A stretch of DNA of 64,000 nt from Lyngbya sp. CCAP 1446/10 (GTDB taxonomy: Bacteria > Cyanobacteriota > Cyanobacteriia > Cyanobacteriales > Microcoleaceae), in contig NZ_JAIGNI010000002.1 in assembly GCF_026130175.1 (NCBI RefSeq), positions 1 through 64,000 on the forward strand. The letters run 5' to 3'. Below are positions 17,296 to 22,519 of this stretch, one piece after another. The position numbers and the translations under genes are program-made. The notes below the pieces were generated by a model. It was not told where the DNA came from. It searched no databases and worked only from the letters and a program-made list of their open reading frames with translations. Numbering within the stretch: the stretch's first letter is position 1; each line of letters starts with the position of its first letter.

Positions 17296-18465
17296 ATGAG
17301 AATCTTGGTTGCCAGCCACACCTATATAGTTGACATAAATAGGGAAAAATATAAAATATTAGCCAACCTAGAACCAGGCATTGAAGTAACAATTGTAGTG
17401 CCGCGACGCTGGAAACCCGGAGGCGTACAAAATCAAACTATTGAAACCGAATTTTATCAAAAAGGCTCATTTAAAATAGTTCCCATATCCAATTTTAGTC
17501 AAAACAATCAAGGATTGCTAACATTTGGCACAGATATAATTAAACTATTGCAGGAATTCCAGCCGCAGATTATCCAAGTCGAACAGGGTTCAAAATCCCT
17601 AGCCTACACCCAATTAATTATACTCAATAAATTACTCAAACTCCAAGCCAAAAATATATTATTTACCTGGTGGAACCTGCCTTATAAATTGAAGTGGCCC
17701 GTTTCAGTCTTAGAAAATTACAATCTCAATCACACTGACGGAATTATTGTCGGCAACCTAGACGGATCTAAAATTTTGAGGCAGCGGGGCTACACAGGTG
17801 CGATGGCAGTAATGCCGCAACTCGGAGTAGATGAAACTTTGTTTCGCCGCACTGGTAAAGACGCTGATTTATCGCTAAAATTAGGCATTGAACCGACCGA
17901 TTTTGTGGTAGGATTTGTCGGGCGATTTGTCGAAGAAAAAGGACTATTAACTTTAGCTGAATCATTGGCGGGATTGAAAAAACTCCCTTGGAAGTGGCTG
18001 TTAGTAGGACAAGGGAAATTGCGATCGCAAATTGTCGAAAAATCGATTAAATGGGGCATCAGCGACCGAATAATCTGGGTAGAAAGCGTTTCCCACGAAG
18101 AGGTTCCCGCATATATCAACCTAATGAACTGCTTGGTATTACCCTCGCAAACCAGCTATAAATTCAAAACTTTGACTACTGTGGGTTGGAAAGAACAATT
18201 TGGTCACGTTTTAATTGAGGCGATGGCGTGTAAAATCCCGGTTATCGGTTCCGACTGCGGGGAAATTCCCCACGTCATCGGTGATGCGGGCTTAGTCTTC
18301 CCGGAGGGAAATGCAGCGGTTTTGCGCGAGTGTTTGCAGAAATTGATGGAGTTGCCGGAGTTGGCGGCTGATTTGGGCGATCGGGGTTATCATAGAGCCA
18401 TGACCAATTATACAAATCAAGCCTTAGCTGAGCAGTTGTTAGACTTTTACAAAGAATTGTTGTAA
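17296..18465 (+). CDS. hpsO: GT4 glycosyltransferase, HpsO-like
   Basis: 389 residues. A GT-B fold enzyme. The N-terminal domain begins MRILVASHTYIVDINREKYK and includes VVPRRWKPGGVQN. The C-terminal domain has FVGRFVEEKGLLTLAE, LLVGQGKLRS, and the EX7E region FGHVLIEAMACKIPVIGSDCGEIP. Retaining nucleotide-sugar transferase, cytoplasmic or membrane-associated. The N-terminal wording fits the HpsO family of hormogonium polysaccharide synthesis as I recall it, and the order GT2 - HpsO-like - HpsP-like supports that. In this genome the next gene of the set is displaced about 2.8 kb by inserted genes. Confidence 0.75.
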   Translation: MRILVASHTYIVDINREKYKILANLEPGIEVTIVVPRRWKPGGVQNQTIETEFYQKGSFKIVPISNFSQNNQGLLTFGTDIIKLLQEFQPQIIQVEQGSKSLAYTQLIILNKLLKLQAKNILFTWWNLPYKLKWPVSVLENYNLNHTDGIIVGNLDGSKILRQRGYTGAMAVMPQLGVDETLFRRTGKDADLSLKLGIEPTDFVVGFVGRFVEEKGLLTLAESLAGLKKLPWKWLLVGQGKLRSQIVEKSIKWGISDRIIWVESVSHEEVPAYINLMNCLVLPSQTSYKFKTLTTVGWKEQFGHVLIEAMACKIPVIGSDCGEIPHVIGDAGLVFPEGNAAVLRECLQKLMELPELAADLGDRGYHRAMTNYTNQALAEQLLDFYKELL

Positions 18466-18508
18466 CTTTTAGCAGTATAATCCAAGTATCAAATCACAAC
18501 TGTTGCAA

Positions 18509-18856
18509 ATGTCTATTCCTTCCGAAATACGACCTTTGGTTGAGCAGCTCTACGAGGTACTAAACGATACCGAGAGCCTTGCAACGCAGGGACTTTTTGC
18601 ACTTAGAACAGCAATGTCTCTTTTTCCAGAAAATGAAATACTGATGCAATACTTTTCTTCGATAACTAATTTTCAATTCTGTGTAATAGGTACTCGCTTA
18701 CAAGCAGAGAACATTGTGAGCAATATATTGATGGCTGGTGTTCCCGATGCAGATGTTCAAAAAGCAGGAGATTATTTAGCAGCCTTGCTACGTATAGCTC
18801 CTGAATCTAAAATGATGCTCGAAAAAGTAATTGAAAAATTAGAGGTATTGTCATGA
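18509..18856 (+). CDS. Small helical protein of unknown function, first of a coupled pair
   Basis: 115 residues from ATG 18509 (a TTG six bases earlier is possible). Predicted mainly helical, without signal peptide or membrane span. I recognise no domain. Its stop codon overlaps the start of the next gene in an ATGA quartet, so the two are translationally coupled. It sits between the hpsO-like gene and the direct-repeat-bounded rloAB cassette, where hpsP would be expected, and so probably arrived as accessory DNA. A small two-gene stress or toxin-antitoxin-like module is conceivable but unsupported by any motif. Confidence 0.6.
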   Translation: MSIPSEIRPLVEQLYEVLNDTESLATQGLFALRTAMSLFPENEILMQYFSSITNFQFCVIGTRLQAENIVSNILMAGVPDADVQKAGDYLAALLRIAPESKMMLEKVIEKLEVLS

Positions 18857-19032
18857 AACAATTACCAGATGAAAGCGTACTGCTGGAAATTCTTGAAATT
18901 GTGAAAGCTGCTGAAGCCAAAGCCAGTGAAATGTATGAATTTTCCAAGAAAATATCTCACAATACCCAAATTACAGCAACCAAGAGAGAGGAAGCTGAAC
19001 AGCTAAACGGGCAGCCTTTTCCAGATAATTAA
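18853..19032 (+). CDS. 59-residue helical protein of unknown function, second of a coupled pair
   Basis: 59 residues. Starts at the ATG of an ATGA overlap with the preceding stop. The sequence is charged and helical (VLLEILEIVKAAEAKASEMY, then ATKREEAEQLNGQ). No recognised domain. Coupling suggests a stoichiometric partner of the 115-residue protein. The 3' end is 47 bases before the left copy of the 36-bp direct repeat. Confidence 0.6.
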   Translation: MKQLPDESVLLEILEIVKAAEAKASEMYEFSKKISHNTQITATKREEAEQLNGQPFPDN

Positions 19033-19079
19033 ATTTGTAATGGGAGATGTTGGTATGTTGATGTAAAAAACGATCCTCC

Positions 19080-19114
19080 ATGCGAATTATCCAAATTATT
19101 CCCTCAATTTCCCT
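19080..19114 (+). pseudogene. Orphan 5' fragment of hpsP (left copy of the direct repeat)
   Basis: 35 bases identical to the first 35 bases of the hpsP-like gene at 21236. After CCCT the sequence changes to AAACCCGGGTTCC. Read from this ATG, the frame closes after 24 codons. The following DNA to about 19190 contains AACCCGGG/CCGGGTTT inverted repeats of the terminator-like type. Confidence 0.85.
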
Positions 19115-19221
19115 AAACCCGGGTTCCTACGAGTTTTGCGACGAGTCACGATAAATCACGCAAGAAACCGGGTTTGTGAGGTCTTTTGGTAATCAGATGT
19201 ATCTAGTGCTAAAATCATTCA

Positions 19222-19851
19222 TCAATCAGGAATAAAACTGTTAAGTTCTTCCACTAGCAGATGCACTGTTGTCAAAGGATTATCACTTTCAGGATTGGGG
19301 CGATCGTATTCCAATAAAAGCCGTTTTGCGTGTTTAATCGCATCCTGCTGTTTGCTTTTGAGTTCCTCGTAAATCGTCTCACTGTTTTTCTGATACTCGT
19401 GTTCCAATAACTTGGTTAGCATATTTTGATAATGCTTGCGAGAAATTCTAGTATTATAAAAATGGAAGTGTAGTAAATACCAAAGTTCAAAAGCATCATT
19501 AGAGTAAGCTACTTTAATGCCGTTATTTTTGGCAAGAGTCATAGCTGTATTAAAATTTTGCGCGTCGTGAGAATTTTTACCGTTAATATCGCGATCGAAC
19601 ACACACCAAAATCTGTCTGTTTCGTCGTATTCTGAGTCATTTTTCAACTCAATAGCTTTTTCTACTAAACTCCTCGTGTTTCTCCCTTCTCCCTTGATAT
19701 CCAGCTTAATTACCTTTGTGTCTACCGGAAAACTTCTAAAATAGTTTGGTTCTGTTTTCTCACCTTCGCACACAATTAAAAACCATTTTCTACTTTTAAC
19801 TTTTCGGTTATAGTAATCAATCTTTCTTCCAGACGAACTTTTTTTACCCAT
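19222..19851 (-). CDS. rloB: RloB-family protein (AbiLii-like, TOPRIM-type nuclease candidate)
   Basis: 209 residues from the ATG at 19851, which overlaps the rloA stop by 8 bases (ATGGGTAA); a GTG at 19860 is an alternative. RloB/OLD-like signatures are the basic N terminus, FLIVCEGEKTEPNYF (Glu29, Glu31) and the acidic pair FDRDING (Asp86, Asp88), followed by NDAFELWYLLHF. These fit a TOPRIM metal site. RloB is the partner of RloA ATPases and corresponds to the second gene of AbiL-type abortive infection systems. The likely role is phage-triggered nuclease or effector. Base composition is A+T-rich relative to flanking genes. Confidence 0.85.
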   Translation of the reverse strand: MGKKSSSGRKIDYYNRKVKSRKWFLIVCEGEKTEPNYFRSFPVDTKVIKLDIKGEGRNTRSLVEKAIELKNDSEYDETDRFWCVFDRDINGKNSHDAQNFNTAMTLAKNNGIKVAYSNDAFELWYLLHFHFYNTRISRKHYQNMLTKLLEHEYQKNSETIYEELKSKQQDAIKHAKRLLLEYDRPNPESDNPLTTVHLLVEELNSFIPD

Positions 19852-21136
19852 GAAGTTCACCTATAAGTTCTTTAAAATTACCAATAAAAGGGATAGCGCC
19901 ATACTTACCAATAATGTAATCGCGCTCAAATGAGGCATTTTTTCCTACTTTATACTCCACCAAAGAGTACAAATCAGTAGCCCCCTTATTGTCCTTCTCG
20001 GTAAACCATATTTGATCCTTGCGAAAAGTCTTGCTGCTGAGCAAGTTTGTGTCGTGTGTCGTGAATATAAGCTGTGCGTTGTGCGGATTAGTCTCATTAG
20101 AATTGAATAAGCAGATTAATTCGCGAGTAATCAGCGGATGAAGTCTGGCATCAAGTTCATCTATGAATAAAATTTTTCCTGTCCTCAAAGTATCGAGAAG
20201 CAGCCCTGCTAATGCAAACAATTTGTTTGTTCCCTCAGACTCATGTTTTTCGATATCGAATATTTCTATAGCAGTCTGCTTACCGTCAGCATCATATTTT
20301 CGATGAACTGTTTTTACGGTTGGTTTGCTTTCAGGATTAAGAGATAAACTACCGCCGTAGTAACTAGCATATAATACCTTATTATTGGAAAGAATAAATC
20401 CAGGTTGATTTGTGATTTGGATATCAGCAATACCCAAGTCTAATTTTTTGATGAATTCAATAATATCATGCCTGTGGCGATCGTTCTCAAAAGAGTCTAA
20501 AGTTTCCTTGCGGTATTGTGTATCTTGCAAGCCTGATATCAATTGCAAAGTTTTACTGAACCACAGCAGAATTTTGCCAGAAACTTTACCATTAAATTGT
20601 GCAACAACAGAAAGAAATAAAGCATTACTTCTGGTTTTATCGCTAATGCCTTGCCCCTCCGGGAAATCATCTAATATAAAATTGTCAAAATCCCGTTCAA
20701 AAAGAAGTTTTTCTGCATTGTTATCAGTTTGAAACAACCACTCAGAAACCACCTGCTCAGTGTTTACCTCAAAGCCATATCTAAAGGTAGTGCCTTTGAG
20801 CAGGAAAACGATTTCAAAGAAGGATGGCTCTTTTTCTGTCTCTGTACTTAGCCTGAATGCTTCAATATCGATCGCCTCTGAAACTTGCGTTTCTTTGGAT
20901 GAGTTGAGGACAAACCACTTCATAAAGCGCAGGGCAGCAACAAGATTGCTTTTGCCACTGGCATTGGCTCCATAAATAGCAGCACTTTTAAGCAATTTTA
21001 ATTTACTACGCTCAATTTCAAAGAGATTGTTTTCGTCAAGCTCTCGATCGTCCTCAGTAATTGACGAAGCTACCATGCTGAGGGTGACAGTTTCTTTAAA
21101 AGATTTGTAGTTACCTACGCTGAATCCAATCAGCAT
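19844..21136 (-). CDS. rloA: RloA-like AAA15-family ATPase (AbiLi-like)
   Basis: 430 residues from ATG 21136, which has GGAGG seven bases upstream; a longer frame to 21250 would read through the direct repeat and is not believed. ABC/SMC-like ATPase of the AAA15/21 group: N-terminal MLIGFSVGNYKSFKETVTLS, Walker A GANASGKS (56-63), Walker B ILFIDELDARLHP (Asp326-Glu327) and the switch His in FTTHDTNLLS (about 361). The long middle carries the coiled-coil/substrate part. It overlaps rloB, giving a two-gene operon as in RloAB/AbiL systems. The product would sense infection and gate RloB; that role is inferred from the family. Confidence 0.87.
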   Translation of the reverse strand: MLIGFSVGNYKSFKETVTLSMVASSITEDDRELDENNLFEIERSKLKLLKSAAIYGANASGKSNLVAALRFMKWFVLNSSKETQVSEAIDIEAFRLSTETEKEPSFFEIVFLLKGTTFRYGFEVNTEQVVSEWLFQTDNNAEKLLFERDFDNFILDDFPEGQGISDKTRSNALFLSVVAQFNGKVSGKILLWFSKTLQLISGLQDTQYRKETLDSFENDRHRHDIIEFIKKLDLGIADIQITNQPGFILSNNKVLYASYYGGSLSLNPESKPTVKTVHRKYDADGKQTAIEIFDIEKHESEGTNKLFALAGLLLDTLRTGKILFIDELDARLHPLITRELICLFNSNETNPHNAQLIFTTHDTNLLSSKTFRKDQIWFTEKDNKGATDLYSLVEYKVGKNASFERDYIIGKYGAIPFIGNFKELIGELHG

Positions 21137-21160
21137 AAAGTGCCTCCGCTCGCCTAAATT

Positions 21161-21183
21161 AGTATAAGGTGCAAAACTTGCAC
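21161..21183 (-). promoter_or_regulatory. Candidate rloAB promoter/operator
   Basis: Inverted repeat GTGCAA-AAC-TTGCAC at 21169-21183, two bases from a TATACT on the minus strand (21161-21166). That is 25-47 bases upstream of the rloA ATG. A good -35 box is not obvious. The dyad could bind a repressor that keeps the cassette silent; this is inference. Confidence 0.4.
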
Positions 21184-21235
21184 TTATTTCTATAATAACA
21201 CAACAAGCTACCCCAACTAATAACAAGTGGTAATC

Positions 21236-22519
21236 ATGCGAATTATCCAAATTATTCCCTCAATTTCCCTCGTCTACGGCGGCCCGAGTCAAATGGTATT
21301 GGAACTTTCGGCCGCCCTAGCTTCCCAAGGCGTTGATGTCACAATTATCACCACAGATTCTAATGGAGATATCGGTCAACCTCCCTTAGATGTGCCATTA
21401 AATCAACCAATCAAACAAAACGGTTATCAGATTATTTATTTCCGCTGTTTTCCGTTTCGTAGATATAAGTTTTCCCTGAGTTTATTACAGTGGTTGAATG
21501 AAAATATCGAACAATTTGACCTCGCTCACATTCACGCTTTGTTTTCGCCAGTAACTACTTTCGCTGCTACAATTGCCCGATATCATAAGTTGCCGTATAT
21601 TATCCGTCCCTGCGGTATGCTTGATCCCGCAGATTTGCAGAAAAAAAAGTGCTTGAAACAGATTTATGCTGCACTTTTAGAACGCCCTAATTTGGCAGGT
21701 GCGGCAGCAATTCATTTCACTAGCAAACAAGAAGCTAAAATTTCAGAAAGATTTGGTTTGGAGAGCACAGGCAAGATGCCTGTGCCACAGGATTTTGTGC
21801 CACAAGATAGCACAGGCAAGATGTCTGTGCCACAGGATTTTGTGCCACAGGATAGCACAGGCAAGATGCCTGTGCCACAAGATTTTTTGTCACTAGATTT
21901 GGTGATTCCATTGGGAGTGACGGCAGATTTTTCTCCTGAACTATTGCGGAATTCTGAAATACCAATCATATTATTTATGTCGCGGATCGAACCAAAAAAA
22001 GGATTAGATTTGCTTATCCCGGCACTGGAAAGTGTTTTAGAAGATGGCATAATATTTCATTTTATTTTGGCAGGCTCCAATCCGCAAGATGCTGATTATG
22101 AAACAAAAATTAAACAAAAAATACAAAGTTTAAGTTTAGGAAAATCTACCATAATCACTGGCTTTGTTAGCGGTGATTTAAAAGCGGAAGTGTTGAGAAA
22201 GGCAGACTTATTTGTGTTGCCTTCCTATTATGAAAACTTTGGTATTGCTGTAGCAGAAGCGATGGCGGCTGGTGTACCTGTTGCTATTTCCGATCGCGTA
22301 CACATCTCCGACGACATCCAGCAAGCAGAGGCTGGGTGGGTTGCGCCTCTGGAGGTAGGGGCGATCGCCTCCACGATCAAATCAGCACTCCTGGCACCAC
22401 AGGAACGCCAGCGCCGGGGCTTGAACGCGCAAGCTTATGCCAAAAAGCACTACAATTGGGAGGCGATCGCCCAACAAACCATCGAAGCTTACCAGCACAT
22501 TTTGGCATCGATTAACTAA
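21236..22519 (+). CDS. hpsP: GT4 glycosyltransferase, HpsP-like, with in-frame repeat insertion
   Basis: 427 residues from ATG 21236. GT-B fold: the N-terminal MRIIQIIPSISLVYGGPSQM through HIHALFSPV and IIRPCGMLDPADLQKKK matches HpsP of hormogonium polysaccharide synthesis as I recall it. The C-terminal domain shows FMSRIEPKKGLDLLIPAL and the EX7E-type ENFGIAVAEAMAAGVPVAIS. Residues about 177-221 are three tandem 15-residue units (STGKMPVPQDFVPQD), encoded by an invading palindromic repeat at the linker between the two GT-B domains and absent from the family. The 5' end is duplicated at 19080. Function is probably retained. Confidence 0.82.
   Translation: MRIIQIIPSISLVYGGPSQMVLELSAALASQGVDVTIITTDSNGDIGQPPLDVPLNQPIKQNGYQIIYFRCFPFRRYKFSLSLLQWLNENIEQFDLAHIHALFSPVTTFAATIARYHKLPYIIRPCGMLDPADLQKKKCLKQIYAALLERPNLAGAAAIHFTSKQEAKISERFGLESTGKMPVPQDFVPQDSTGKMSVPQDFVPQDSTGKMPVPQDFLSLDLVIPLGVTADFSPELLRNSEIPIILFMSRIEPKKGLDLLIPALESVLEDGIIFHFILAGSNPQDADYETKIKQKIQSLSLGKSTIITGFVSGDLKAEVLRKADLFVLPSYYENFGIAVAEAMAAGVPVAISDRVHISDDIQQAEAGWVAPLEVGAIASTIKSALLAPQERQRRGLNAQAYAKKHYNWEAIAQQTIEAYQHILASIN
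21764..21898 (+). repeat. Three in-frame 45-bp tandem repeats inside hpsP (R4-related)
   Basis: Units at 21764-21808, 21809-21853 and 21854-21898. Each contains CACAGGCAAGATGCCTGTG, an almost perfect palindrome equal to the core of the R4 dispersed repeat found at 29190 and 44390. Unit 2 has a T in the palindrome and unit 3 is diverged at its end. Confidence 0.9.

Follow-up and report, generated by a model that had tools for sequence, protein, structure and literature searches.

A gene-start scar beside an AbiL-like rloAB pair upstream of hpsP in Lyngbya sp. CCAP 1446/10, probably left by recombination between two haplotypes

The two-protein systems closest to the gene pair considered here are AbiL and PARIS. 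PMC10440598, a study of toxin-antitoxin networks, relates RloB to OLD-TOPRIM domains and presents AbiLii as the toxic effector of AbiL, while the corresponding part of PMC12409363 gives for PARIS a worked mechanism in which the ATPase and the TOPRIM tRNase are separate proteins. Here we describe such a pair, rloA and rloB, lying between two copies of a 36-bp repeat at the start of the surface polysaccharide gene hpsP in Lyngbya sp. CCAP 1446/10. The DNA analysed, hereafter the window, is a stretch of 64,000 nucleotides from contig NZ_JAIGNI010000002.1. A search on RloB, RloA, AbiL, hpsP, Microcoleus and abortive infection showed no title on this locus in the literature collection consulted.

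Based upon the state of the locus in related genomes we think it likely that the window carries the product of recombination between two hpsP haplotypes, which left a scar of the gene start that has been eroding since, in a variable spot without a recombinase. The features concerned are as follows.

17296–18465, plus strand: hpsO, left flanking glycosyltransferase gene (NCBIfam EPS_HpsO, 704.2 bits, cut-off 575)
18506–18856, plus strand: sm1, small gene of the sm1-sm2 haplotype, no known function (followed in relatives by tblastn)
18853–19032, plus strand: sm2, small gene, no known function, overlapping sm1 by 4 nt
19033–19079, plus strand: sm2-type leader, 47 nt; in 7 of the 15 relatives with an empty site it stands directly before an intact hpsP
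19080–19114, plus strand: left hpsP remnant, 35 nt (the 36-bp repeat as reported adds the shared C at 19079)
19115–19177, no strand assigned: degenerate copy of a palindromic REP-like repeat that is abundant in the genome, at the right end of the putative remnant-shortening deletion
19222–19851, minus strand: rloB, RloB/AbiLii-like, with TOPRIM-like motifs (Pfam, PADLOC)
19844–21136, minus strand: rloA, AbiLi-like ATPase (PADLOC, Pfam)
21137–21235, no strand assigned: rloA-type leader, 99 nt, common to the divergent rloA and hpsP, holding the inverted repeat TGCAA-N3-TTGCA
21236–22519, plus strand: hpsP, intact, 427 aa (NCBIfam EPS_HpsP, 641.9 bits, cut-off 550)

The preliminary description of this DNA had reported identical 36-mers at 19079–19114 and 21235–21270, which are 2156 bp apart, and had called the left one an orphan piece of the 5' end of an hpsP-like gene that is intact on the right. 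Both statements stand. The right copy consists of one C and the first 35 nt of the complete gene, and the left piece begins 47 nt past the stop of sm2. The window genome (6.75 Mb, 171 contigs) contains no site for the 36-mer, with up to 3 mismatches, other than these two, and the reversed 36-mer pattern used as a control gave 0 sites; since there is no third site and the control is empty, a chance origin of the pair is rejected. The search for the core elsewhere, which had been proposed earlier, therefore yielded nothing. Also as described before, rloB and rloA are the sole genes between the copies, both on the minus strand, and overlap by 8 nt if rloB starts at the ATG at 19851 (the list of open reading frames has a GTG start at 19860).

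The length of the left piece differs among relatives, which are given below by our own genome numbers. Downstream of sm2, G013 and G024 carry ~258 bp of hpsP start, interrupted in each genome by two TGA stops and separated from rloB by a short link and then a REP-like repeat. The window, G010 and G021 retain no more than 35 bp of hpsP, which run straight into the same REP-like repeat through one common junction, and in G027 and G028 there is no left piece, everything from the sm2 stop to ~30 nt before rloB being missing. The common leader on the left and the common repeat on the right identify these as the same site in three stages. The simplest reading is a shared deletion of ~250 bp which converted the long form into the 35-bp form. 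Because the left piece measures ~258, 35 or 0 bp while its flanks stay the same, the 36-bp repeat most likely represents what a deletion left of a longer piece, not a 36-bp target duplication, and duplication of a target by a transposon is ruled out on the same grounds. The REP-like palindrome, AGAAACCSGGTTTCT, has 530 sites in the window genome (≤1 mismatch), and among the matches listed many are paired ~49 nt apart. The link that follows the long scar, TTGCAGGRCTTACGCA, was considered as a further high-copy repeat and dismissed; it has 3 sites in the window genome, with 1 mismatch.

We searched for hpsP in 59 genomes, 29 of which, window included, belong to the same genus. The genus locus set comprises 27 of these 29, namely 26 with an hpsP gene (cut by contig ends in G027 and G028) and, in part, G024, whose contig ends inside rloB so that its rloA and right hpsP are out of view; G016 and G022, which have no close hpsP, were excluded. 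From the 26 other genomes up to 15.5 kb surrounding the locus was read with the window's proteins. In this set of filamentous cyanobacteria of the Microcoleus group, 12 of the 27 loci have the rloAB pair immediately before hpsP (G000, G001, G006, G008, G010, G013, G017, G021, G024, G025, G027 and G028), and the other 15 lack it. Seven of the filled genomes also possess sm1 and sm2, sm1 being detectable by tblastn in 15 of the 27 loci, window included. At seven of the 15 empty sites hpsP follows sm2 after 47 nt, that is, at the position of the left remnant in the window; an empty site with a single hpsP start, which the preliminary description had named as a check, thus exists. Its claim of an insertion holds as regards presence and absence of the cassette (12 versus 15 loci); entry by an event that duplicates 36 bases does not agree with a left piece of ~258, 35 or 0 bp.

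A rloA with at least 85% identity was present in 11 of the 59 genomes, always beside hpsP, and the next relatives reach at most 59%. As this rloA occurs only there, we see no sign of rloAB moving to other sites. At six loci of more distant rloA relatives rloB adjoins rloA in every case, and nowhere in the fetched stretch was hpsP, hpsO or another of the flanking proteins matched. The hpsO-hpsP interval accommodates other genes. In G001, G017 and G008, which have rloAB, and in G004, which does not, an opposite-strand gene resembling, by eye, one for a secreted protein occupies this spot as a further module. The overlapping sm1-sm2 pair (18506–19032), for which there was no Pfam, PADLOC or NCBIfam match, resembles a second small module of the spot.

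Two leaders precede hpsP in the genus. The rloA type was found in all 11 readable filled loci, with a length of 99 nt in ten and 98 nt in one, and in all 11 it runs up to the hpsP ATG. In six empty loci (G003, G004, G011, G018, G023 and G026) the leader is similar to the final 24 nt of the rloA type but unlike the sm2 type; 0–8 of 200 shuffles were as good, and the six are not all mutually independent. G020 has the sm2 leader followed by an hpsP start which groups with the right copy of G013, and lacks rloAB. The inverted repeat TGCAA-N3-TTGCA within the rloA-type leader (21170–21182 in the window) is intact, by eye, in ten of the 11 readable filled loci and altered on both arms in G028. It may be an operator; the promoter scan of the rloA-hpsP leader flagged it as a terminator-like stem as well, and found no sigma-70-like site.

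As to the origin of the two copies, in a tree of the first 264 bp of hpsP the G013 and G024 left pieces cluster with alleles from the empty sites of G012, G002 and G019 (support 90/94; 91/94 on 258 bp), which represent the backbone clade to which G013 and G024 themselves belong. The right copy of G013 groups with G020, G006, G025, G003 and others. Constraining left and right copies of G013 to group together was narrowly rejected by the approximately unbiased (AU) test (p 0.044, or 0.028 when the left piece of G024 was added). Left and right are identical over 35/35 nt in the window and G021, and differ by 1 in G010 and by 2 in G013, against identity over those 35 nt in 18 of 325 pairs of hpsP alleles from the genus. 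The identity of the copies in the window and G021 would be accounted for by short-tract exchange between them, or by allelic exchange with crossovers falling inside the gene start.

The backbone tree was built from glmM, GT2 and hpsO by a quick method with a midpoint root (26 rows; G011, for which no upstream genes lay within the fetched stretch, was left out). On this tree the filled and empty states require at least seven changes, and its deepest branch (G007, G009 and G015) is without rloAB, hpsP following sm2 at 47 nt in G007. The hpsP tree requires eight changes, hpsP genes do not group by state, and the rloA tree follows the backbone in part only. Recombination was examined with a simplified pairwise incompatibility test of our own (two-letter sites, pairs within 100 columns, 1000 shuffles), from which partial rows were dropped (two for glmM, two for hpsO, one for rloB, two for hpsP). 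A signal was obtained by this simplified test for glmM, GT2, hpsO, rloA and rloB (p 0.001–0.002), and nearest relatives switch along the genes. Homologous recombination between Microcoleus lineages has been published, as stated in the relevant part of PMC10923798.

The following course of events would produce such a locus. Two haplotypes occur in the genus, hpsO-sm1-sm2-hpsP and hpsO-rloB-rloA-hpsP, the latter with the different 99-nt hpsP leader. Homologous recombination in or beside hpsP, combined with illegitimate joining next to rloB, could have united them, leaving the sm2-linked hpsP start as a scar of ~258 bp to the left of rloAB and an intact hpsP to the right. Deletion would then have cut the scar to 35 bp, as in the window, or removed it altogether, and the arrangement may have spread between species via allelic exchange. 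Recombination across both gene starts could in turn drop rloAB and restore the sm2-hpsP state. The best reading of the hpsO-hpsP interval is therefore that of an ordinary recombination-driven variable spot which happens to be unusually well fossilised.

Several results weigh against this explanation. Neither a donor molecule nor an excision junction was observed, and hpsP itself gave p 0.82 in the simplified recombination test. As many as 62 and 78 of 500 shuffles were as low as the observed change count, so that filled and empty loci show no clear clustering on the backbone tree. The AU p-values lie near 0.05, the groups were picked after the tree had been seen, and the case for separate sources of the left and right copies depends on a small number of sites. 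In the best tree the G013 and G024 left pieces do not come out as sisters, even if their sisterhood is not rejected (p 0.255). At the 21 sites which separate G006, G025 and G003 from G002, G019 and G012, the right copy of G013 is divided 9 versus 12, and five of the 9 form one cluster in columns 91–96; the left copy, at its 10 covered sites, has 2 letters of the first group and 8 of the second. The 9 versus 12 split also weakens the candidate explanation that the whole right hpsP of G013 is a foreign allele. Finally, the six empty loci with a rloA-like leader contain no rloAB piece detectable by blastn (E 0.01), for which reason they may predate the cassette, or else may have lost it.

The preliminary description had suggested, as a possibility, a site-specific island with the hpsP start as its attachment (att) core and a recombinase supplied in trans, which would make the 36-bp copies attL and attR. 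Precise empty sites, a rloA-type leader that reaches the hpsP ATG wherever it can be read in filled loci (11/11), and the 35/35 identity of the copies in the window and G021, set against the 18 of 325 allele pairs, are all to its credit. An att core ought to be constant, however, and the left piece comes in three lengths with the same flanks, the copies differing moreover by 1/35 in G010 and 2/35 in G013. Between the copies there are rloA and rloB only and no recombinase, although one acting in trans was not sought. With no third core site in the window genome, and with rloA of this type confined to the neighbourhood of hpsP in 59 genomes, we regard an att island as very improbable and have abandoned it. 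The Campbell-type single crossover is a close cousin of the recombination of haplotypes outlined above: RecA would have inserted a circular molecule carrying rloAB and the start of hpsP by way of hpsP, so that the left copy ended up truncated and the right one complete. The observed geometry of truncated start, cargo and whole gene fits, and single crossovers of circularised DNA are reported for E. coli in the pertinent part of PMC3240628, which we count for this model. We nonetheless consider it unlikely, there being no plasmid backbone between the copies and all 180 plasmid records that match RloA having <60% identity.

If rloAB and the left fragment were instead ancestral in the genus and had undergone losses only, one would understand why branch lengths in the rloA tree resemble those of the flanking genes, whose grouping it follows in part (by eye). 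The midpoint-deepest branch (G007, G009, G015) is, however, devoid of rloAB, hpsP of G007 follows sm2 at 47 nt, and if the tree is right at least seven losses would be required; ancestry with losses is thus rather improbable. There is, lastly, a small chance that the paired gene starts constitute a RecA-driven switch by which populations alternate between the sm1-sm2-hpsP state and one with rloAB interposed and hpsP run from the divergent rloA leader, with short exchange tracts keeping the starts alike in the window and G021. Were this true, gain or loss of the defence pair would also reset control of hpsP. We retain recombination of two haplotypes, followed by erosion of the scar, as the probable history of the locus.

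Regarding the cargo, the earlier assignment to an AbiL-like RloAB pair was corroborated by Pfam and PADLOC. RloA matches PADLOC AbiLi [349.5 bits, E 4.1e-105] and Pfam AAA_21 [158.2 bits], and its Walker A residues G56, S60, G61 and K62 are invariant in 17/17 aligned sequences. It also matches the AriA model, at 144.7 bits, below the 349.5 bits for AbiLi. RloB matches Pfam RloB over the curated cut-off [171.1 bits, E 4.3e-50] and PADLOC AbiLii [102.4 bits]; its E29, D86 and D88 are invariant in 15/15 aligned sequences. In a predicted model of RloB (pLDDT 84.1) strands alternate with helices, and E29, D86 and D88 are located where the first and third strands end. TOPRIM domains have their catalytic residues at the ends of such strands. 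A fold search of the model against PDB gave no match at E ≤0.001, as a result of which the TOPRIM-like fold is not confirmed, and sequence searches of PDB produced weak matches only [best E 0.0016 for RloA, 0.0044 for RloB]. None of the RloA relatives encoded by plasmids (180 records) or phages (8 records) reaches 60% identity. The pair is most likely an AbiL-like system. By analogy, RloA may act as an ATPase that restrains RloB and senses infection, with RloB as a putative TOPRIM-like nuclease that stops the infected cell.

The host gene is, as previously stated, intact (427 aa, NCBIfam HpsP 641.9 bits); that HpsP makes a phage receptor, as also suggested there, is conjectural. At 21765–21898, in the linker between its two domains, hpsP contains three in-frame 45-bp copies of a genome-wide palindrome, GCACAGGCAAGATGCCTGTGC, which has 36 genome sites (≤2 mismatches); the copy number within hpsP differs among relatives.

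As the window illustrates, the perfect short repeat that bounds a defence cassette may wrongly be taken for an att site or a target duplication. The series from ~258 to 35 to 0 bp would provide a stepwise record of how a recombination scar erodes, at a spot where a change of defence genes goes along with a change of leader before a polysaccharide gene, and the large published set of Microcoleus strains, which comprises 291 genomes (PMC10923798), is suited to testing this joint change.

When compared with AbiL of Lactococcus lactis and RloAB, as covered in that part of PMC10440598 which deals with them, the present pair is alike in having two overlapping genes for an ATPase and an RloB with TOPRIM-like motifs. 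It differs in lying inside a hormogonium polysaccharide cluster, divergent from hpsP. With PARIS, according to the account of AriA and AriB in part of PMC12409363, it shares the layout of a separate ABC ATPase, the putative sensor, and a putative TOPRIM effector; unlike in PARIS, RloA here scores higher with AbiLi and its partner is RloB. Homology-facilitated illegitimate recombination, of which one portion of PMC3240628 treats, has one homologous and one illegitimate end and would give such a scar, a likeness we infer from the anatomy alone. With recombination hotspots free of mobile genetic elements the locus has in common variable cargo between fixed genes (12 loci filled, 15 empty) and no integrase between the copies; the recombination signal in neighbouring genes, which the simplified test gave for several of them but not for hpsP, may be a further likeness. 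Unlike those hotspots, the spot beside hpsP holds one or a few small modules, and a series of gene-start scars records the event.

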